NCBI GenBank assembly: GCA_905234865.1
Contig: CAJOJE010000009.1
Location: forward strand, 1 to 64,000
Reading direction: 5' to 3'
Origin: Candidatus Gastranaerophilales bacterium
GTDB taxonomy: Bacteria; Cyanobacteriota; Vampirovibrionia; Gastranaerophilales; Gastranaerophilaceae
Length of the DNA stretch: 64,000 bases
In this document: piece after piece, positions 3,857-64,000 of the stretch
Position numbering within the stretch: the stretch's first letter is position 1
Layout of the letters: each line of letters opens with the position of its first letter
Position numbers and translations under genes: made by a program
The notes under the pieces: model-generated
What the model saw: only the letters and a program-made list of their open reading frames with translations
Database searches by the model: none
Told to the model about the DNA's origin: nothing

Positions 3857-3877
3857 GATTTTAATAATATTGTATGA

Positions 3878-3906
3878 TTGAAACAAAATTTTAAAAATCG
3901 TATAAT
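3878..3906 (+). promoter_or_regulatory. Sigma-70-type promoter of the prepilin-like gene
   Basis: TTGAAA (3878-3883) and TATAAT (3901-3906) are separated by exactly 17 bases, 28 bases before the start codon of the next gene. Confidence 0.65.
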
Positions 3907-3933
3907 AGAGATATAAGTATGTTTTAAGGTATT

Positions 3934-5103
3934 ATGCTAAGTATGAAACAAAGAACTACCCTTTATTACGGAATTTCTTCGGATGCTAATAAAAAGAAAG
4001 CTTTTTCTCTCGGGGAAACTCTTATTGCAATAGGCGTTTTAGGCATTATATTTGCCATTTTAATTCCTCTTGTCATGGCACTTCTTCATGACCGAGTAAG
4101 AGAAAGCCATGTTAATCTTTTTAAGAAGAAATTTCTTAAATCTATGGAAATGATGGCGCTTCAAGGCGAGGTTGGTCCTTATTACAGAAATACTCAAGAA
4201 TTTGTTGATTATCTTCAAGGACACCTGAAAATCAATGCTGTGTGCAGAGTCGGCTCCGAACCGGCTTCGCTCCCTCCGATTTCCGATTGCTGGGGCGATG
4301 ATTACCCCGGTATTACTCTTCCTAATGATACAATTTTGGATATTGATAAAATTGAAACGGGCGATGCTTTTCAAATGCCTTCAAACAGCAAAAATGATTG
4401 GTCTACGCATAATATTGCAATATTAACGATTGACGGCAATCATATGATTTTATCTTATAATCTTCAATGCGAAGCTTTGGTTGCGGGTGTTTATTCCGGT
4501 GATATTCCCGCCAAATGTGTTGCGGGTGTTATGGATGTTGACGGTATAAGAACCCCTAACAAGTTAGGAAAAGACGTTGCCATTTTTGCTAATGCAAACG
4601 GTTTGGGACCTACTTGTTATATTTCTCATGACGGACTTTGTCTTTCCGCCCCCAAGAGGGTTTCTGCCCCCGCAACACATTCAGAGTGTATTCAAAAAGC
4701 GGGCGAATTGGGATATGATGAAGGAAAATGTATGAATGCCGATAATGATGAGAATTATTTTGTTCCTATGGCTGAAGAATGCGGCGGCTGGGCAAACATC
4801 GCTTCTCCTCAACAAGTTAAAAAGGTAATTGATTATATGTATGATGAGGGGGTTCCTTCTAACGGCTCAAAAACCGATATTGAATATATAGGTCATGCCG
4901 ATATATTAGGTCTTCCAAATCCCTCTAAGCAATCAGTTATTTTATTAAATCATACTAATACGTGTAATACGGTTGAAGGAAGGATTGAATGTAAGATATC
5001 GGCTCAAAAACTTTCCAAAACTTCCGTTGAATCAATTGTAGAAGATGCTACATCATCCGGTATTATGGAATCCTACTTCTTTTGCAATAAAAGTGGGGGC
5101 TAG
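3934..5103 (+). CDS. Long prepilin-like (pseudopilin) protein
   Basis: A 389-residue protein with a type IV prepilin leader: a basic stretch ending KKKA, then the hydrophobic helix FSLGETLIAIGVLGIIFAIL with Glu at position 5 after the likely peptidase cut. The remainder is a large exported domain with many Cys. It is homologous to the proteins at 51331 and 53222: DCWG near residue 110, VMDVDGIRTPNKLGKD, and ANGLGPTC followed by GLCLSAP instead of GACFGALF. ATG 3934 (AAGG 4 nt upstream) and ATG 3943 are both possible starts. It has its own promoter and terminator. It is a pilus or pseudopilus component by signature; the specific role is unknown. Confidence 0.8.
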   Translation: MLSMKQRTTLYYGISSDANKKKAFSLGETLIAIGVLGIIFAILIPLVMALLHDRVRESHVNLFKKKFLKSMEMMALQGEVGPYYRNTQEFVDYLQGHLKINAVCRVGSEPASLPPISDCWGDDYPGITLPNDTILDIDKIETGDAFQMPSNSKNDWSTHNIAILTIDGNHMILSYNLQCEALVAGVYSGDIPAKCVAGVMDVDGIRTPNKLGKDVAIFANANGLGPTCYISHDGLCLSAPKRVSAPATHSECIQKAGELGYDEGKCMNADNDENYFVPMAEECGGWANIASPQQVKKVIDYMYDEGVPSNGSKTDIEYIGHADILGLPNPSKQSVILLNHTNTCNTVEGRIECKISAQKLSKTSVESIVEDATSSGIMESYFFCNKSGG

Positions 5104-6986: not shown

Positions 6987-7027
6987 AATTAGTATCAAAA
7001 GGTTATCAAGGAGGTAAGGTATTCGTG

Positions 7028-8314
7028 ATGAAAAATGCCGACAATAAAGATGAGATGAAAGAAATTAACGAAAACGGAGTATCTCTTTTTTCTCGCTCTC
7101 TTGATTTAATGGAAGATGATCCGCTTGAGGAAATTTTTGCGTTAAATCTCGGAGATTTTTTGTGCGAAAATCTTATTAATGATGAACTCGCAAGCAAAAT
7201 TTCCGTTAAAAAAGACAAAACGGAAAGCTTAAAAGAACAGTTGAAAGAGTTAATTTCAATATATTCTATTGACTCGACTTTGTCTTTATTGGGGTTTAGA
7301 GAAAGCGAAGACTATATAATTTACGATTCTGTCGCAAGAGCAATTAAAGTAATGCTCGGGCTCAGCGAATGCAATATTTATCTTTCCCAAAAAAGACAAC
7401 CTTTGTCGCTTCGTGGAACTTCTTCAAATAATCATAACGATTTCATAAGCGATAATGTTAAAACTTGTTTTGAAAAAGAAGAAGTTATAACGGTTCAAGA
7501 TGATGAATCATATATTAAAATTTTCCCCATGAAAAATAATTTTGAATGCATAGGTTCAATTGAAGTAATAAAACCTATCGACCATCCTTTAGAGAAAGAA
7601 TACGAAGATTTATTAAAAATTACCGCAGGACTGTTTGTTACGTCTTTGGGTATTCAAAAATTAATTGACGAAGTTAAAAAGGTTTTAAATCAAGAAATTG
7701 TTTCTACTTCGGAATTGCAAAATTTAAGAGCTCAACTTACCGCAATTATCGGCGATCTTCAAGAACAGCAGCAAAATTTTGTTGAAACCATGGCAAGAGC
7801 GGTTGATGTTAAGAGCAGGTATAAAAATAACCATTCCAGACATGTCGCAGAGCTTTCGAGAGAAATTTGCAAAGTTATAGGTTTAAATGAAAAAACGACC
7901 GATTTAATTTATTATGCCGGTTTGTTGCAAAATATCGGCAAAATCACGCTCAATGAACAGCTTTTTACCAAAAAGGACAAATTATCCAAAGAAGAATGGG
8001 AAAAACTTCAGCAATATCCGAATGCAGGCGTTGAACTTTTGATGAATATTAATTTCTTGTCGGAAGTCGTGCCTTATGTTTATTACCAAAAAGAACGCTG
8101 GGACGGTACCGGTCAGCCTGAAGGATTAAAAGGCATGAGCATTCCTTTCGGCTCAAGAATTATTGCGCTCAGTGATGCGTATTGTGCTCTCGTACAGGAC
8201 AGGAGCCATAGAAAAGCTCTAACCAATAAAGAAGCACTTGAAATTCTTAAATCCGAATGCGGAACAAAATGGGATAAGGCTGCTTTTGAAGCCTTAGAAA
8301 AAATAAAAGGATAA
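7028..8314 (+). CDS. Degenerate HD-GYP-domain protein with N-terminal GAF-like region
   Basis: 428 residues. The N-terminal 200 are GAF-like by pattern. The C-terminal half is clearly HD-GYP in layout, but the catalytic signatures are lost: HD of HDIGK reads Gln301-Asn302 (QNIGK), the HHE motif reads YQK, GYP is GQP, and DAYDAL is DAYCAL. The NHSRHVAELS motif and WDGTGQPEGL frame remain. Phosphodiesterase activity on c-di-GMP is therefore unlikely, and a binding or scaffold role is more plausible. Start is ATG 7028 or GTG 7025; AAGGAGG lies upstream. Transcription is probably from a sigma-28-type promoter. Confidence 0.85.
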   Translation: MKNADNKDEMKEINENGVSLFSRSLDLMEDDPLEEIFALNLGDFLCENLINDELASKISVKKDKTESLKEQLKELISIYSIDSTLSLLGFRESEDYIIYDSVARAIKVMLGLSECNIYLSQKRQPLSLRGTSSNNHNDFISDNVKTCFEKEEVITVQDDESYIKIFPMKNNFECIGSIEVIKPIDHPLEKEYEDLLKITAGLFVTSLGIQKLIDEVKKVLNQEIVSTSELQNLRAQLTAIIGDLQEQQQNFVETMARAVDVKSRYKNNHSRHVAELSREICKVIGLNEKTTDLIYYAGLLQNIGKITLNEQLFTKKDKLSKEEWEKLQQYPNAGVELLMNINFLSEVVPYVYYQKERWDGTGQPEGLKGMSIPFGSRIIALSDAYCALVQDRSHRKALTNKEALEILKSECGTKWDKAAFEALEKIKG

Positions 8315-53221: not shown

Positions 53222-54376
53222 TTATTGCTTGCAAATTGTGCGCATGGTTCCGTAGCCGTAGCGTGGAATAGTGGTCCATGTTGTGGATGCCTTTTTTTTG
53301 GAATATGAAGCTACGCTTGCAAAAGTACCTCCATAAAGCGGTTCTTCGTCGTTTAACCATATATAAGAAAATTTGTTATTTTCTAAAGGTTCCATTAAAC
53401 CTAATTTGCTTGCGCTGCCTTCTATATAATCCGTAAATTCATTTGTTCCTTTTGTTTTATACATAAGATTGAACATGCCTTGAATATCTTCTCTTGTAGG
53501 CAAATTTTCTTTATTTCCGCATGCTTTTATTGCACCTGCATAGTAATCGCCGCCTTTTTCGGTGTAGTATACTCTTTCTCTTGTGAGGCGATAATCTTCT
53601 CCCATGCAATAAGTCAGACCCCAAGCGTTTTTATTATTTATGCATTCTTCATAACTTGAAACGGGCGGCGCTTCAAACATCAATCCAAAACAAGCTTCAC
53701 CTATTTTAATTATGCAATTATCCCCAAGTCCCGTTGCATTAATAAATGATATATCTTTTCCCACTCTATTTGGCGCCTTGTTTCCGTCAATATCAAGTAT
53801 TGCTGCTACACATCCCATTCCGTTATGGCTTGTTCCGTCATTTGACCATACAAAAACTTGCGGTTCAACTTGTGTGCAATATTTGTCGAATGCAATTATA
53901 AATCTTGTTCCGTCAACTGCAAACATTCCTCTTGTTTCGTTGTCAAAACCGTCATTTACGTTTTCGTTGCCACCATATTTGAACAATTTTCCGTTCGTAG
54001 CATTTTTAATGTCGTATTTTTCCCCGCTCGGAAAATTAATTGTTTCATACCCCCAACAATCATCAAGATTTGTTGTGGTGCAAATTTGATTTATTTTATA
54101 ATATTTTCTTAACTTATCCGTAAACTCGTTTGTTGCATCGTATTTTTCCGCCCCCGTTCCGTAATAAGGACCTATGTCATAGTTCATCGCCATATTTTCA
54201 ATTGCTTTTGCAAATTTGTGCTTTGCAATTGCGGTTTGCCTTGTTCTTGCCCTATCCTCCATGGAATTTGTCATATATCCTATGATGATAACCGCAACTA
54301 CACCTATGATTGTTATTGTGATTAAAGTTTCCGCAAGGGTAAACGAAGGCTTTTTCTGTTTTTTGTTTTTTAACAT
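53222..54376 (-). CDS. Long prepilin-like (pseudopilin) protein
   Basis: 384 residues. A basic leader ending KKPS precedes FTLAETLITITIIGVVAVIII with Glu at position 5. The body shows DDCWGYETINFPSGE, FAVDGTRFIIAFD, ILDIDGNKAPNRVGKD, NATGLGDNC and GEACFGLMF, so it is a close relative of the gene at 51331. Start 54376 sits 2 bases after the sigma-factor stop; a far upstream start inside the sigma gene would give an unlikely N-terminus. The gene is thus coupled to the sigma gene. Confidence 0.87.
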   Translation of the reverse strand: MLKNKKQKKPSFTLAETLITITIIGVVAVIIIGYMTNSMEDRARTRQTAIAKHKFAKAIENMAMNYDIGPYYGTGAEKYDATNEFTDKLRKYYKINQICTTTNLDDCWGYETINFPSGEKYDIKNATNGKLFKYGGNENVNDGFDNETRGMFAVDGTRFIIAFDKYCTQVEPQVFVWSNDGTSHNGMGCVAAILDIDGNKAPNRVGKDISFINATGLGDNCIIKIGEACFGLMFEAPPVSSYEECINNKNAWGLTYCMGEDYRLTRERVYYTEKGGDYYAGAIKACGNKENLPTREDIQGMFNLMYKTKGTNEFTDYIEGSASKLGLMEPLENNKFSYIWLNDEEPLYGGTFASVASYSKKKASTTWTTIPRYGYGTMRTICKQ

Positions 54377-54378
54377 TA

Positions 54379-55215
54379 TTATCTTCTTGTGGGAACGATT
54401 GTTTTTATCATTCTGTCTTGTCTTGTTGCGCTTAAAATGTTTCTTAATTTCATGATTGCCTGCGCATGAAGTTGACATACTCTTGATTCGGATACATTGA
54501 TTGCTTCGCCGATTTCTTTCAGGGTCATATTTTCATGGTAATAAAACACGAGAAGCATTCTTTCTCTTTCGGGGAGTTTTTTAAGCGCTTTTTCAAGTTC
54601 TTTTTTGGCGTCTTTTTTCTCTGCGGCTTCTTCGGGGCGTTCGCTTTTTGAATCTTCTATCGTGTCAATAATTTCAACCGATTCATCGCCTAAATTCTTT
54701 TTATCGTACAGTGAATCAATGCTTGTATCGGATGCTAAAATTTCATCTACTTTTTCTTTTTCAATTCCTAATTTTGCTCCGACTTCGGAACTTGTAGGCA
54801 TTCTTCCCAATTCATTTTTTAATTCTTGAAAAGCATTTTTTACATCTTTTATTTTTTTTCTTACGGTTCTGGGGAGCCAATCGTTTGCACGAATTTTATC
54901 AATAATTGCTCCTCTTATTCTCATAAGTGCATACGTTTCAAATTTTGCGCCTCTGTCGGGTGAGTATTTTTCAACTGCGTCTATTAACCCCTCTATGCCG
55001 TAGCTTGTTATATCTTCATAAGAAAAACTCGGCGGTAAACTTACCTTAATTCTTCCTATAACATATCTTGTAAGATAAATATATTGAACAATGAGTTTAT
55101 CTCTTGTCTGCTTATCTTGTTTATTTGCCTGATAAGTTTTCCAAAGTTCTACAAGTTCTTTATCGGAAACTCTAACAACTTTTTTATAGGAATCCGCTTC
55201 AAAATTCTCACTCAT
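54379..55215 (-). CDS. RNA polymerase sigma factor, FliA/WhiG (sigma-28) family
   Basis: 278 residues with regions 2, 3 and 4 and no region 1. Region 2 has FSYEDITSYGIEGLIDAVEK and GAKFETYALMRIRGAIIDKI. Region 3 has DWLPRTVRKKIK and LGRMPTSSEVG. Region 4 has LKKLPERERMLLVFYYHENM and LKEIGEAINVSESRVCQLHA. This matches flagellar/developmental sigma factors, which read TAAA...GCCGATAA-type promoters. No anti-sigma FlgM is adjacent. The next gene is a prepilin-like gene, 2 bases after the stop. Confidence 0.92.
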   Translation of the reverse strand: MSENFEADSYKKVVRVSDKELVELWKTYQANKQDKQTRDKLIVQYIYLTRYVIGRIKVSLPPSFSYEDITSYGIEGLIDAVEKYSPDRGAKFETYALMRIRGAIIDKIRANDWLPRTVRKKIKDVKNAFQELKNELGRMPTSSEVGAKLGIEKEKVDEILASDTSIDSLYDKKNLGDESVEIIDTIEDSKSERPEEAAEKKDAKKELEKALKKLPERERMLLVFYYHENMTLKEIGEAINVSESRVCQLHAQAIMKLRNILSATRQDRMIKTIVPTRR

Positions 55216-57881: not shown

Positions 57882-60305
57882 TTATTTATCTTCGGAATCT
57901 TTATCTTTTTCTTCTTCGGATTCTTCTTCGGATTCAATTTCTATGTTATTGTCTTTGTATATTCTGTTTTCGAAATAATCGTCAACCGCTTCTTCGGCTG
58001 CGTTTTTAGCTTCTTTTTTGTCGTCAATTTTGTCTTCTGCGGCTTTTCTTGCGTTTTCCATAACGCTTGTTAAATATGCAAGACCCGTTATTGAATGAAT
58101 GTCGTCTTCGGTGAGTGTTATATCGCCGTATTTAAAATCGGTTTCGGGAGAATTTTTTAATTCTCTTAAAGTATTCAATATGCTTGTTATTGTTTCGGAT
58201 TCGATGTTTTTGCTTTTGAATACGTTTTCAAAATCCTGTTCGCTTACGGATGATGAAATTGTTCCGGCATTACCCGCATGGTTTGCTGCCTGACCGTAGA
58301 AAATATTTAAGTTTTCTTCCGTATTCAAGGTTTCGTCAGCCGTAATTTGAGCGCCGTCTTTGGTAATCGTAAATTGATTTATTAAGTTGGAGCCGTTTAC
58401 GTTGACATAGTTTTCTTCAACGTTATCTTCGCCGTTAATCAACCCTGATTCTTTAATATCTCTTAAATCAATCCGTGTTATTCCCGCTTCTTTTGCGTTG
58501 GTGTATGTAATATTAAAGTCTACCTGATTTTCAAATATGTTGTTTGCTTTGTAATTTTCGATTTCTTGAGGAGTATTAACACTCTCGTCTTGATAGTTTG
58601 ACATTAATAAAAGATTATCTAGTGCGCTGTTGCCGTTTTCGTCAATGTCGTTATTATCAATTATACCGTCCTCGTTGTAATCGTAAGCGAGTAATTCGGA
58701 TATTCCGTCTTTTGAACCTAAAAGTTCATTTTTGGTTCCGTTTGTATAATTGAATTTTCCGTCATTATTTCTGTCTGTTATGAATGCAAAAGTTGTGTTG
58801 CCTTCTTGGAACGTTATCGGGTCGCAATGTGCTCTTGTGGTTGTGATTGCTTTTGCTCTCGTATCAACCGTTTTTTCTGCGGTTACAAACCAAAATTCCT
58901 GTATTTTGTTTGAAATATCCTGATAGATTGTTCCGGTATCTTGAGTATCGTTAGGTACCTGATAATTTCTTTCCTGCGATTGTTGCGACAAATCATATTG
59001 TATACCCGAATTAGGGTATGCTATTGATAAAGTATACATTGCTTCCTTAAACGTAAATCCTGCGTTGTACATTTTATCCAAAGCATCAAGAGCGTTTGTT
59101 TGCATGCTTCTTAAACATTCTGTATCAACTTCGTTATTATTGCTTTCGTTTGTTGACATTGCAAGAGCATTTAATTTTGAAAATACCGCTTCTTCACCGC
59201 CCGAGTTGTTTGGAATTAAATAATTTACGCTGCCGTCGGGAGCTTCCGTTCTTTGAATACCGACTTGCCAATTTTCAGCCACGAAAGACAATATTTCATC
59301 TGCGCTCATCCCTTGTTCTTGAAGGGTTTCAAGCATGTTATCTTCATTTATTCTTTCGCTTAAATTTTGTAATTGCGGGTTTTTGGATAAAGTTGCATAC
59401 CATACGGAATTATACCCCGTTCCTGCATTTTTTGCCCTGTATCCTGCTTTTAATTCTTCGATATTAACGTTTTCTCTATGCTCGTTTTCAATATCGCCCG
59501 CATTAATTACGACTTCATCTTTATCTTCCGTTGCATCTTCAACATGACCTATATTGCCCATGCTGAGTCCTGCGCTTGCAATAATTTCGTTTGCAACTTT
59601 TTCTTTTGCTCCCGAAAATACTGGAATTGTTGAATCCATATCGTAATTTGTATAGGCATTTTCAACCGTACTTCCAACCATTGCGTTTTTGGTTGTTGTT
59701 AAAAGCTGTATTGTTGCATTAATATTTTTAAGTTGAGTTTCGTATCCTTCTACTTGATTGATAGCGGTTTCAATATCCGATGATATTGATATGACGGCAC
59801 CTCTGTTTGATTGGTATAATTCCCATAAAATTTGCAACTCTGCCTGATTTGCCTGAAGTCCGCCAAGACGTTTTCTGAATGCTTGATCAAAACATTCTTG
59901 AAAACTTGAGGAGTCGTTTGAAATTCTAAAGGAGTGAATTGCATCTTCTGCCGCATATCTTGCGGCTTTTTCGGTATCTTTTTGAAATTTGGCCATAGCG
60001 GACGTGATTTCAGCGGTTGTATAAGCCAAAACGTTTTGTTTTGATTTAACCTCGTTATTTTTTTCTTCAATCCTATCCATCACTTTTTGAGCCTTTTCTT
60101 CAAGGCTGCTTATTTTTTCCTCAAGTTCCGCAATTCTTGCAGCAATTTTTTCTGCACCGACATCCCCCGCATTCATCGTGTTTGTGTCTGAAAACAGGGT
60201 TTCAAGCTCATTTTTTACGCTTTGTGATTCGTATGTGCTTCCAAAATTTATATTGTTTATTCTTGATAAAAGAGTATCCACATTTTGATTATTGATGGCA
60301 CTCAT
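57882..60305 (-). CDS. Large coiled-coil protein with EF-hand-like loops (paralog 1)
   Basis: 807 residues. The N-terminus (MSAINNQNVDTLLSRIN) is followed by a coiled coil at about 50-120, then SFQECFDQAFRKRLGGLQAN, shared with paralog 2. Two calcium-loop-like motifs appear at about 506 (DRNNDGKFNY) and 538 (DYNEDGIIDNND), dockerin/EF-hand in style. The C-terminus is a long acidic tail. No signal peptide or membrane helix. Two of three thirds align with the next gene by motif order. The start follows GGAGAATGAGGC. Unknown function; export by a non-Sec route is possible. Confidence 0.8.
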   Translation of the reverse strand: MSAINNQNVDTLLSRINNINFGSTYESQSVKNELETLFSDTNTMNAGDVGAEKIAARIAELEEKISSLEEKAQKVMDRIEEKNNEVKSKQNVLAYTTAEITSAMAKFQKDTEKAARYAAEDAIHSFRISNDSSSFQECFDQAFRKRLGGLQANQAELQILWELYQSNRGAVISISSDIETAINQVEGYETQLKNINATIQLLTTTKNAMVGSTVENAYTNYDMDSTIPVFSGAKEKVANEIIASAGLSMGNIGHVEDATEDKDEVVINAGDIENEHRENVNIEELKAGYRAKNAGTGYNSVWYATLSKNPQLQNLSERINEDNMLETLQEQGMSADEILSFVAENWQVGIQRTEAPDGSVNYLIPNNSGGEEAVFSKLNALAMSTNESNNNEVDTECLRSMQTNALDALDKMYNAGFTFKEAMYTLSIAYPNSGIQYDLSQQSQERNYQVPNDTQDTGTIYQDISNKIQEFWFVTAEKTVDTRAKAITTTRAHCDPITFQEGNTTFAFITDRNNDGKFNYTNGTKNELLGSKDGISELLAYDYNEDGIIDNNDIDENGNSALDNLLLMSNYQDESVNTPQEIENYKANNIFENQVDFNITYTNAKEAGITRIDLRDIKESGLINGEDNVEENYVNVNGSNLINQFTITKDGAQITADETLNTEENLNIFYGQAANHAGNAGTISSSVSEQDFENVFKSKNIESETITSILNTLRELKNSPETDFKYGDITLTEDDIHSITGLAYLTSVMENARKAAEDKIDDKKEAKNAAEEAVDDYFENRIYKDNNIEIESEEESEEEKDKDSEDK

Positions 60306-60339
60306 GCCTCATTCTCCTTTGTTAGTTCTTATATTTTAT

Positions 60340-60366
60340 ATTTCGTCATATTTTTTTGTGCCTTTA
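60340..60366 (-). promoter_or_regulatory. Weak sigma-28-like promoter before paralog 1
   Basis: Minus strand TAAAGGCA, 11 bases, GACGAAAT. TAAA and five of eight bases of GCCGATAA agree, with the correct spacing. Weak alone; supported by a similar site before paralog 2. Confidence 0.35.
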
Positions 60367-60401
60367 GACATGGTACTTCTTTTTTTAACAAATGTTAACA
60401 T

Positions 60402-60437
60402 AACAAAACCCCCTGCATTAAGCAGAGGGTTTTTGTT
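60402..60437. terminator. Rho-independent terminator between the two paralogs
   Basis: AACAAAACCC with CTGC pairs with GCAG and GGGTTTTTGTT, one internal mismatch and a five-base loop. It ends the message of the gene at 60467, so the paralogs are separately transcribed. Confidence 0.8.
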
Positions 60438-60466
60438 GAACCAATAAAGTATGACCTTTGATTTAA

Positions 60467-62827
60467 CTATTTTGAGTTATTTGTTTTCTTTTTATCGTCA
60501 TCATCCTCGTCTTCTTTTTTGCCGAGAATTCTTGTTTCAAAATAATCGTCAATTGCTTCCGCAGCGTCCTCTTTTGCTTCTTTTATATGATCGACCTTGT
60601 TTTCCGCTGCTATTCTTGCCGCATCCATTGCACCCGTTAAGTATGCAAGGCCGGTTAAGTTGTGGATATCATCTTCGGTGAGGGCAATTCCGTCGTATGT
60701 CCAGCCTGTTGTTTGAGAATTTTTGATATCCGTCAGAGATTTTAAGATGTTATCCATATTCTGGCTGCCTTCGGCTTCATTGAAGGCTGCTTCAAATTCC
60801 GCATTGCTTAATTTATTTGAAATTTTGCCTGCATTGCTTGCATCTTTTGCAACCTGACCATAGAACGTATTGAGGTTTTCGCAAGTGTTCAAAGTTTCTT
60901 TACCCGTTAATTTTTTACCGTCTTTTTTAATCGTAAATTGGTTAATAATACTCGAACCGTTAATGTCGTCGTATTTTTCCTGAATGCCGTCATAATCTTT
61001 GGTGGAGCCTGCAAGCGATTCGCCATGTCCTTCGCCTTCGGTGAGTCCTGCCAAACTGATTTCGGTTATGCCTGCATCATAAGCATTTGTGTAACTCATG
61101 GAGAAGTCTACGGAGTTTGTATAGTTATTATTTGCTAAATTATTGACATCATTTGCATTTGAACTTGATTCTTGTTGGTTATTTGCCATTAATGTTATAT
61201 TTTTAAGTTCATTGCCCGTTAATTTACCGTCGCCGTTGGTGTCAAATGCGGTAAGTTCGGATATACCTTCTTTTGAACCCAACAATTCGTTATCTGCGCA
61301 ATTATTGTAATCAAATTTCCCGTCGCCGTTTCTGTCGGTTATGAATGTATATGTCGTATTTCCGTCTTGGAACGTAATCGGGTCGAATTTATTAACAACA
61401 CCCGTCGTGGAATCGTCGCCCTGTTTTTCTTGAGTTCCGTTTACACCCCAGTATTGTTGAATTTGACCTGAAATGTTTCCGTAGAGGTTTCCCGAAGAGT
61501 CTGAATCTGCTACGATTGAATAGTTTCTGTCACCGTTTTGTTTTGATAAATCGTATGTAATACCTGCATCAGGGAATGCTTTATTTAATGTGTACATTGC
61601 TTCTTTGAACGTAAAGCCCGCTTCGTACATTTTTGTTAAAATACCGTCTTTCTCAACAGCTTTTTTCAGTTCTTTCATCTGATTTTGATTAACGGAATCT
61701 GCCGTTGCGGTTTTTGAGCCGTTTTGAATTAATGCCGTTAATTTTTCAAATACGGGTTCTTGAGTCCAGGCGTCTGACGAGTGACCTTTCGGGATGTTCC
61801 ATGTGCCGTTTGCGCCTTTTGTTATGCCTACATCCCAGTTTGAAGAAATAAATTGCATGATTTCTTCCGTTGACATGCCGGAATTTTGGAGATTTTCAAT
61901 CATTCCGCTTTCGTTCAAGGCTCTTAAATTTGCAAGTTCGGGGTTTGAAGATACGCTGTATTTATCGCCGCCTGCGTACGTTCCTTGTTTTTGACCAAGC
62001 CATGTTTGTTGTGCGGCATCTTTCGTTGTTTGGCTCGTTGCAACTGCCGCTTCCGCTGAAGCTTCACCTGCGTTATTTCTTGATTGATAAGTTGATAAAA
62101 TTGAGTTTGCAAGCTCTGCTTTTGCGCCTGAAAATACGGGAACATTAATGTCGGTGTCGATATTTTTATAAGCATCGTCAACCGTACTGTTTTTCATGAT
62201 GTTCATTGTTCTTGTAAGCAAACTTATTGTTCCTTGAACGTTTTTCAGTTGTGCTTCAAGTCCGTTTACTTGGTTGACCGCATTTTCAATATCCGATGTA
62301 ATTGAAGTTATAGCGCCTCTGTTTGCTTCATAAAGCGTCCATAACATTTTAATTTCGGATTGGTTTGCCTCAAGTCCGCCCAGACGTTTTCTGAACGCTT
62401 GGTCGAAACATTCCTGAAATGTCGATTCGCCCGTATCTCTTTGATATGAATAAATTGCATCTTGTGCGGCAAGTCTTGCGGCGGATTTTGTTTTAGCCTG
62501 AAATTCGGTTGTTGCCTCCGTCAAGTCTGTTGCCGAAGCTGCAAGTGCTTCTTGTTTTTCTTTTAAGCCGTCGTTTTCGTCAGCGATATTGTCGAAGATT
62601 TTTTGTGCTTTTTCTTCCAGTTTATCAATTTTACTTTGCAGTTCATTAATTTGTGCTTGAATTTTTTCTGCGCCTGCAGAGCCTCCGTTGTATGTTGCAA
62701 CGTCGGTAAATAAAGTGTCCAGCTCGTTTTTAACGTTTTCTGCCTGAGTTTCCGAAGTTCCCGAGAAATTCAGTTTTGAAATTTGCTTCAGTAAACTGTC
62801 AACGCTCTGGTTGTTTACGGATGTCAT
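60467..62827 (-). CDS. Large coiled-coil protein with EF-hand-like loops (paralog 2)
   Basis: 786 residues, paralogous to the gene at 57882 along its length: start MTSVNNQSVDSLLKQIS, coiled coil about 55-110, FQECFDQAFRKRLGGLEANQ, TFKEAMYTLNKAFPDAGI, and two loops at about 494 (DRNGDGKFDY) and 526 (DTNGDGKLTG). The C-terminus is acidic and Lys-rich. No signal peptide. The start follows AAAGGAG at 7 nt. The regular DxNxDGxx loops point to Ca2+ binding. A tandem duplication with clear divergence. Confidence 0.82.
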   Translation of the reverse strand: MTSVNNQSVDSLLKQISKLNFSGTSETQAENVKNELDTLFTDVATYNGGSAGAEKIQAQINELQSKIDKLEEKAQKIFDNIADENDGLKEKQEALAASATDLTEATTEFQAKTKSAARLAAQDAIYSYQRDTGESTFQECFDQAFRKRLGGLEANQSEIKMLWTLYEANRGAITSITSDIENAVNQVNGLEAQLKNVQGTISLLTRTMNIMKNSTVDDAYKNIDTDINVPVFSGAKAELANSILSTYQSRNNAGEASAEAAVATSQTTKDAAQQTWLGQKQGTYAGGDKYSVSSNPELANLRALNESGMIENLQNSGMSTEEIMQFISSNWDVGITKGANGTWNIPKGHSSDAWTQEPVFEKLTALIQNGSKTATADSVNQNQMKELKKAVEKDGILTKMYEAGFTFKEAMYTLNKAFPDAGITYDLSKQNGDRNYSIVADSDSSGNLYGNISGQIQQYWGVNGTQEKQGDDSTTGVVNKFDPITFQDGNTTYTFITDRNGDGKFDYNNCADNELLGSKEGISELTAFDTNGDGKLTGNELKNITLMANNQQESSSNANDVNNLANNNYTNSVDFSMSYTNAYDAGITEISLAGLTEGEGHGESLAGSTKDYDGIQEKYDDINGSSIINQFTIKKDGKKLTGKETLNTCENLNTFYGQVAKDASNAGKISNKLSNAEFEAAFNEAEGSQNMDNILKSLTDIKNSQTTGWTYDGIALTEDDIHNLTGLAYLTGAMDAARIAAENKVDHIKEAKEDAAEAIDDYFETRILGKKEDEDDDDKKKTNNSK

Positions 62828-63147: not shown

Positions 63148-63432
63148 CTAAACAATCTCTTGTGATTGTTTAAACATTACAAGAAAGTCGTCCATGTTGT
63201 TAAAAATTTCGCCGATGGCATTTGCAGCGTTATTTTTCCAATCGTTATCTTTTGTAAAGCAGGTTTCCTCTTTTAAATCATACTTTTTAGTTTCTTTTTC
63301 ATTTGTTAAAAAGGCGATTGGCATTTGTTGATTATATTTTACGATTTTATTCTCAATGCTCAAGGGTTTCTCCTGTTTTTTCCTTACTCTGTATATCGGT
63401 AAATTTAAAGAAACCTTTAGATGTGTTAACAT
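63148..63432 (-). CDS. Small hypothetical protein
   Basis: 94 residues, basic at the N-terminus and mixed helical after. Not recognised. The ATG is 4 bases past the stop of the upstream gene, and there is no separate ribosome site, so translation is probably coupled. The second half contains several Asp, Asn and Lys. No membrane segment. Confidence 0.5.
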   Translation of the reverse strand: MLTHLKVSLNLPIYRVRKKQEKPLSIENKIVKYNQQMPIAFLTNEKETKKYDLKEETCFTKDNDWKNNAANAIGEIFNNMDDFLVMFKQSQEIV

Positions 63433-63436
63433 TTTG

Positions 63437-64000
63437 TTACATTTTTTTATAAAGCGTTAAAGATTTTATTGTTTCGTTTTCTCTAAATTTTAGGTGTTTC
63501 GGAGTATCGACGGCAACGTCTCTTATTGCTTTAAAGCCTGCTCTTTCTAAGGCATCGGGGTTTAATTTGCAAATTGCCTGATTTGCTTTATTTATTCCGT
63601 TGTAATTTAATAATATTTCATTTCTTTTTTCATCGCGTCCGACAAAATGACATGCCACGTTATAATCGTTGAATAACGGATTTTTTATATCGTTTTGATT
63701 TATTACATCTAATTGTTGAATTAAATTTGTTTGTATAATCAAATAATCATAATCAAGATTTTTTATATGCAAAAGATTTATCGTGTCGATTTTACAGCTA
63801 TTGTTCAATTCAAGATATTTTGTACTGAACATCATAAAAACGTTTGGCGCAACAAAACCTATACGGTTGTTTGAGTTACATACGGGTTCAATTGTTTCTT
63901 TTAAAACTCTGCCTTCGGTAAAACTTGAATAAAAAGGTAAGTTTAAATCTCTCATTTTTGTTTGGACATATTCTAAATTATGTTTTTTGATTTCTTTTGT
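63437..64000 (-). CDS. Hypothetical protein, N-terminus cut by window edge
   Basis: The frame stays open from the ATG at 63955 to the right edge (15 more codons, no stop) and reads as ordinary protein, so the true start is probably outside. The ATG has no ribosome site. The visible 187 codons include FVAPNVFMMFS and DYLIIQTNLIQQLDV, with a mixed alpha/beta look. Not recognised. The small gene at 63148 follows after 4 bases. Confidence 0.5.
   Translation of the reverse strand, partial: TKEIKKHNLEYVQTKMRDLNLPFYSSFTEGRVLKETIEPVCNSNNRIGFVAPNVFMMFSTKYLELNNSCKIDTINLLHIKNLDYDYLIIQTNLIQQLDVINQNDIKNPLFNDYNVACHFVGRDEKRNEILLNYNGINKANQAICKLNPDALERAGFKAIRDVAVDTPKHLKFRENETIKSLTLYKKM

Follow-up and report, generated by a model that had tools for sequence, protein, structure and literature searches.

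The window, i.e. the whole stretch of 64,000 nucleotides analysed here, contains two genes in tandem, copy A and copy B (Table 1), whose products are 47% identical in a protein alignment (381/804 identities, E = 0) and share their domain order. Both are exact open reading frames, with a separate terminator hairpin behind each of them, as the preliminary description of this DNA had it in speaking of separately terminated tandem paralogs of about 800 residues. A search of the own genome returned no matches at E ≤ 1 besides the two copies. Neither protein possesses a Sec signal or a transmembrane span; indeed, the highest mean hydropathy over 19 residues (Kyte-Doolittle) is 0.76 in copy A and 0.87 in copy B, which agrees with the signal peptide having been described as absent. 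The DNA upstream of copy A holds a small open reading frame of 94 amino acids as well as the terminal part of a large membrane protein (window 63148-64000, minus strand). At the same position, relatives possess two similar membrane proteins of ~670-690 amino acids in tandem (L034:512-4584).

Table 1. Features of the gene pair and of associated genes. Coordinates without a prefix refer to the window; residue numbers refer to copy A.
Feature	Residues	Position	Strand	Remarks
Copy A	1-786	60467-62827	-	786 aa ORF; predicted type III substrate / surface protein
Copy B		57882-60305	-	807 aa ORF; predicted type III substrate / surface protein
Sigma-28-like promoter of copy A, TAAAGTTAAATTGAGAATGTGACGAT		62888-62863	-	TAAAG..GACGAT; 13/16 against TAAAGTTT-N12-GCCGATAA
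Sigma-28-like promoter of copy B, TAAAGGCACAAAAAAATATGACGAA		60366-60342	-	TAAAG..GACGAA; weaker, 10/16
10-bp direct repeat GTTAACATTTGTTAA 5' of copy B		60385..60399	-	candidate activator site
Terminator 3' of copy A		60433-60405	-	12-pair stem, T tail
Terminator hairpin 3' of copy B		57824-57808	-	
Long helical hairpin / coiled coil (predicted)	49-212	62192..62683	-	AlphaFold2 helices 49-130 and 137-212
FQECFDQAFRKRLGG block	137-151	62375..62419	-	present in both copies
FTFKEAMY core, family signature	405-412	61592..61615	-	(nearly) invariant across the 29 members
EF-hand-like loop 1, DRNGDGKFDYNN	498-509	61301..61336	-	last position non-canonical
EF-hand-like loop 2, DTNGDGKLTGNE	529-540	61208..61243	-	canonical 12-residue EF loop
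FliA/WhiG sigma-28 gene		54379..55215	-	presumed driver; TIGR02479, 249.5 bits vs cut-off 189.6
MGMAASQARFL... proteins		L103:2403-3701, 3868-4860	+	G000, contig C1
Rod operon FlgF-FlgG-FlgB-FlgC		L137:8438-10672	+	

The pair constitutes a new protein family that no known family matches by sequence or structure. Searches of both copies against Pfam, NCBIfam and PHROGs gave nothing above cut-off, and the curated Pfam and NCBIfam models for flagellin, hook and cap families match neither copy. In the PDB, sequence searches (with single sequences as well as with profiles) retrieved solely coiled coils and calmodulin-like EF loops. An AlphaFold2 model of copy A built on the family alignment (mean pLDDT 79.5, pTM 0.62) predicts a helical N-terminal third with a long hairpin, in line with the coiled coil proposed earlier, followed by further helices in the middle, a mixed beta region (residues 484-648) and C-terminal helices. 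When models of the whole copy A and of its residues 285-670 were compared with PDB folds, nothing was found at E ≤ 1e-3, and the EF-hand pair fold was not recognised; the best resemblances were to SH3BP5 and other generic coiled coils, several of them intracellular. A weak likeness to alpha-pore-forming toxins (MakA, AhlB; E ≥ 0.14) was not credited. The profile and structure searches thus revealed no structural match to a cytoplasmic family.

The family alignment comprises 29 members end to end, which are 20-57% identical to copy A. The FQECFDQAFRKRLGG block, previously described as conserved, is found in both copies, but in the alignment its conservation is confined to close relatives, and it is the FTFKEAMY core that is kept family-wide; a second conserved region begins with DPITF (A 482-486). 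Both DxNxDG loops of the preliminary description are present and fall inside the predicted mixed beta region, although just the second of them is a canonical EF loop. With one canonical and one non-canonical EF-type loop the pair resembles EF-hand proteins, from which it differs in giving weak single-loop matches below cut-off. The best match of copy A among EF-hand models is Pfam EF-hand_5 (E = 3e-4, under the Pfam cut-off). Such models match 16-18 of the 29 members weakly at E ≤ 0.1, and none of the 29 reaches a curated EF-hand cut-off (best score, 24.0 bits vs cut-off 25.4). As the matches remain below the curated cut-offs, the earlier argument that calcium loops place the proteins outside the cell is weak, even though the EF-like loops themselves exist.

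The same region could be taken as a sign of another Sec-independent export route, e.g. type I secretion, in which it would act like the calcium-folded domains of large type I cargo. As a lead only, the DP...DxNxDG...GIxxIDL pattern resembles the calcium-dependent modules of RTX-like proteins. No such match emerged from the Pfam, NCBIfam, PDB sequence or fold searches, no linked ABC/MFP genes adjoin the family genes, and the sigma-28 promoter discussed below points to a type III regulon instead. We therefore regard a type I route as very improbable.

Each copy is preceded by a TAAAG-N14/15-TGACGA-type site located 61-62 bases 5' of the start. In the window alone, the promoter pattern was matched three times against 0.86 expected matches; as 7 of 100 shuffles reach this count, the window by itself is not decisive. 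Because this result was merely suggestive, the upstream regions of relatives were scored against a fixed consensus. The sigma-28 consensus known from E. coli is TAAAGTTT-N11-GCCGATAA; we allowed spacers of 10-12 and counted at least 12 of 16 positions as a pass. This score was reached by 18 of the 27 family genes; among 171 further genes taken from the same contigs as controls, a single one passed, an MGMAASQ gene (see below). The family genes with such a promoter include homologues down to ~23% identity. The scores of family and control genes differ with a Mann-Whitney p of 1.5e-15, a value that overstates independence because the rows are related. Genome-wide, a loose promoter pattern showed a modest excess (56 vs 39 in the control), since most loose-pattern matches fall in coding DNA; this made it necessary to compare gene by gene against a fixed consensus. 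The sigma-28-like promoters noted earlier are thus substantiated, with that of copy B being the weaker one. Further upstream than the promoter, repeats of the class GTWAA-N4..6-GTWAM precede 19 of 27 family genes vs 4 of 170 others; this motif was chosen after inspection of the sequences and is therefore a lead only.

The gene for the presumed cognate sigma factor, fliA, is located at a distance of 2.7 kb from copy B, and the genome has no other copy of it at E ≤ 1e-40. FlgM was looked for as well and was not found. The arrangement family gene-recF-pfkB-S4-fliA is seen again in G026 (same genus) and in G066 (another genus). Linkage to fliA was dropped as a general proof, as in the genus g22 the family gene, which is longer there (about 930-1000 amino acids), sits at another locus. 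Note also that a pilin-like protein is encoded at window positions 53222-54478 (minus strand), with an N-methylation motif below cut-off; its open reading frame overlaps the 3' end of fliA by ~100 bases, which is probably due to a wrong start in the list of open reading frames.

Besides the pair, several other genes have promoters of this type. In the stretches of this genome that were analysed, the genes with a score of at least 12 include those for a 171-aa protein, for two MGMAASQ proteins, for an EF-loop protein of 400 aa and for a CHAP protein, none of which has an evident signal peptide. The CHAP hydrolase (L105:15005-15937, plus strand; promoter 14/16) combines an EF-like N-terminal loop with a C-terminal CHAP domain (PF05257, 3.3e-10). 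As this enzyme acts on peptidoglycan, i.e., outside the cytoplasm, an export route is expected for it. Of 38 genomes of the order, 37 encode MGMAASQ proteins (2-18 matches per genome), which have conserved ends and variable middles. Their genes carry sigma-28-like promoters in the window's genus, and in one stretch (L041) an MGMAASQ gene and a family gene are about 2.5 kb apart; the MGMAASQ proteins are candidates for a main subunit or cargo. The CHAP hydrolase shares its N-terminus, IGxYxIxSxxxY followed by an EF-type loop, with the proteins encoded at L095:3021-4223 and L104:19-1155, possibly as a common export or sorting signal. Within the window, a sigma-28-like site (13/16) is also found upstream of a 429-aa open reading frame (7025-8314, plus strand).

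FliA-regulated proteins are not all exported, as exemplified by the chemotaxis proteins of E. coli. The pair could accordingly represent long coiled-coil scaffolds or regulators of the FliA regulon that work with calcium or other ions in the cytoplasm and never leave it. Such a role would be compatible with the acidic and soluble nature of both proteins, with the finding of no export signal in them, and with the generic, partly intracellular coiled coils among their best fold resemblances. Nevertheless, the regulon also holds the CHAP cell-wall hydrolase, likewise without signal peptide, and the conserved ends and variable middles of the MGMAASQ paralogues are typical of exposed proteins, so that we consider a purely cytoplasmic function unlikely.

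In the sample of 191 genomes of the GTDB family (homologue threshold, E ≤ 1e-5), the protein family is present in 30, i.e. in all genomes of the own genus and in parts of several other genera. The records of the relatives are nearly all named Gastranaerophilales (including Candidatus Galligastranaerophilus). A phage origin was rejected, as 2.9 million viral contigs contain no relative. Members of the own genus typically possess two copies, often in tandem and adjoining recF.

This distribution bears on whether the pair are remnants or accessory components of an ordinary flagellum, such as hook-associated or filament-like proteins, that were kept after its loss. A sigma-28 promoter and linkage to FliA are standard for late flagellar genes, and the partial gene sets of the order have been read as flagellum loss (Soo et al. 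2014, PMC4040986). Nonetheless, all nine genomes of the own genus carry the family and none of them carries flagellin, the family is spread evenly over flagellin-bearing and flagellin-free genomes, and promoters and reading frames are intact across highly diverged genes, which is not expected from decay. Together with the lack of any match to flagellin, hook or cap families, this makes a flagellar leftover very improbable.

The genome does encode a flagellar-type export machine. One contig carries the genes for FlhA, FliH, FliF and FliE together with a lytic transglycosylase, another one those for FliR, FliQ, FliP, FliO and a FliN/SctQ-like ring protein (TIGR02551, 1.4e-15), and FlhB is encoded on a third contig. 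In addition, there is a rod operon (Table 1); a sigma-28-like site 5' of flgF matches the consensus in some genomes only. FlhA of this genome scores nearer to FlhA than to SctV, but below both cut-offs. Flagellin (PF00669) gave no match in the genome at E ≤ 0.1. The rod family PF00460 has three matches in this genome (G000), rod-sized where listed, and up to nine in flagellated relatives; with three matches only, those listed being rod-sized, the gene content makes a hook in this machine unlikely. The export gate (FHIPEP) is found in 29 of the 30 genomes carrying the protein family, the exception being a 63%-complete genome (G031) with a marginal partial match only; carriers devoid of any secretion or appendage system, which would have spoken against the earlier interpretation, thus did not come to light. 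The family genes do not cluster genetically with those of the machine. The preliminary description had suggested a non-Sec route linked to an appendage: an appendage-type export machine is indeed encoded, but as the genome lacks flagellin, the appendage is not an ordinary flagellum. A 483-aa protein (L063:9678-11129, minus strand; G000, contig C3) comprises nothing of FlhA but its cytoplasmic C-terminal domain (PF00771 positions 321-656) and could act as a soluble docking platform. A few other genomes have no FHIPEP match except one of the weak, second kind (E about 1e-42 to 1e-48).

Across the family, the sigma factor and the gate outlast the filament, since flagellin (76 of 191 genomes) is far rarer than FliA (185) and the FHIPEP gate (190); the same holds for the 159 good-quality genomes, where flagellin is present in 61, and FliA and the gate in all. 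The FHIPEP gate scores form two tiers, and a tree of 19 FlhA proteins separates a divergent from a true flagellar FlhA clade (100/100 support, very long branches). Flagellated genomes such as G112, G092, G033, G046, G040 and G030 possess one FlhA of each clade. Furthermore, FlgF-FlgG-FlgB-FlgC, constant in order and sizes, were found in almost every one of 20 further genomes, irrespective of flagellin (in a few of the stretches covered, FlgC is outside or at the edge). The separate FlhA clades and the constant rod operon imply a second conserved set rather than a decaying flagellum. Judged by its genes, the divergent export machine is a near-universal paralogous set in the family.

We propose that the pair belongs to the FliA regulon and most likely represents late substrates of this divergent, probably hook-less flagellar-type III export machine (probability about 60%). 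FliA would transcribe both genes as well as those for the MGMAASQ and other signal-less proteins. The N-terminal region would steer the pair to the FlhA/FlhB gate, and the proteins would then pass the FliPQR pore and the FlgB/C/F/G rod. After folding outside the cell, where calcium could fill the EF-type loops, they may serve as parts of the surface or of an appendage, or be released. We counted the weak promoter of copy B, the EF-hand matches below cut-off, the lack of clustering with the machine genes, the failure to find FlgM and the rod operon promoter fitting the consensus in some genomes only against export through a type III machine. A wider and more tentative proposal, which we hold to be possible though short of probable, is that the second, rod-ended machine, present in nearly all Gastranaerophilaceae and controlled by FliA, builds a new extracellular appendage or secretes new cargo. 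In this case, MGMAASQ proteins may form the main subunit, with the calcium-loop proteins of 800 residues as large components of its surface or tip.

Although widespread in the gut of animals and humans, Gastranaerophilales are nearly uncultured, and their "incomplete flagella" have so far been read as loss. If functional, the machine would exemplify, in living Cyanobacteria, the conversion of a flagellum into a system for secretion or for an appendage, sitting beside a true flagellum in many species and equipped with a defined regulon of candidate cargo. It would then bear directly on the origin of injectisomes from flagella and on the encounters of these gut bacteria with their host and neighbours.

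Several known systems are similar in part. With FliA class 3 late flagellar substrates, the pair shares the sigma-28 promoter, a nearby fliA, the lack of a Sec signal and a flagellar-type gate; unlike these, it is not homologous to flagellin, hook-associated, cap or stator proteins, and its host genome is without flagellin. Partial flagellar gene sets have been described for Gastranaerophilales, with loss of function inferred in several of them (Soo et al. 2014; Utami et al. 2018, PMC5877343). Part of these genes are very probably the same as those described here, but they were read as lost or partial flagella, whereas we find a near-universal paralogous set with a conserved rod operon and, in addition, a sigma-28 regulon. 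A literature search on Melainabacteria and type III secretion (subscription papers being outside its scope) found nothing on point. An injectisome likewise possesses export gate and ring homologues without a filament, and the machine here includes a SctQ-like C-ring protein; it differs in having FliE, FlgB, FlgC and FlgF/G and in its genes being scattered on several contigs. FlgB, FlgC and FliE are markers separating flagella from injectisomes (Abby and Rocha 2012, PMC3459982); as all three are encoded here, the machine would count as flagellar by gene content, though without filament. Finally, Buchnera keeps flagellar basal bodies that lack a filament and whose function is unknown (Schepers et al. 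2021, PMC8109811). In both cases, genes for a basal body and type III export are retained without a filament; the present machine differs from that of Buchnera in coexisting with a separate true flagellum in relatives, in the retention of FliA and in having a regulon that supplies candidate cargo.
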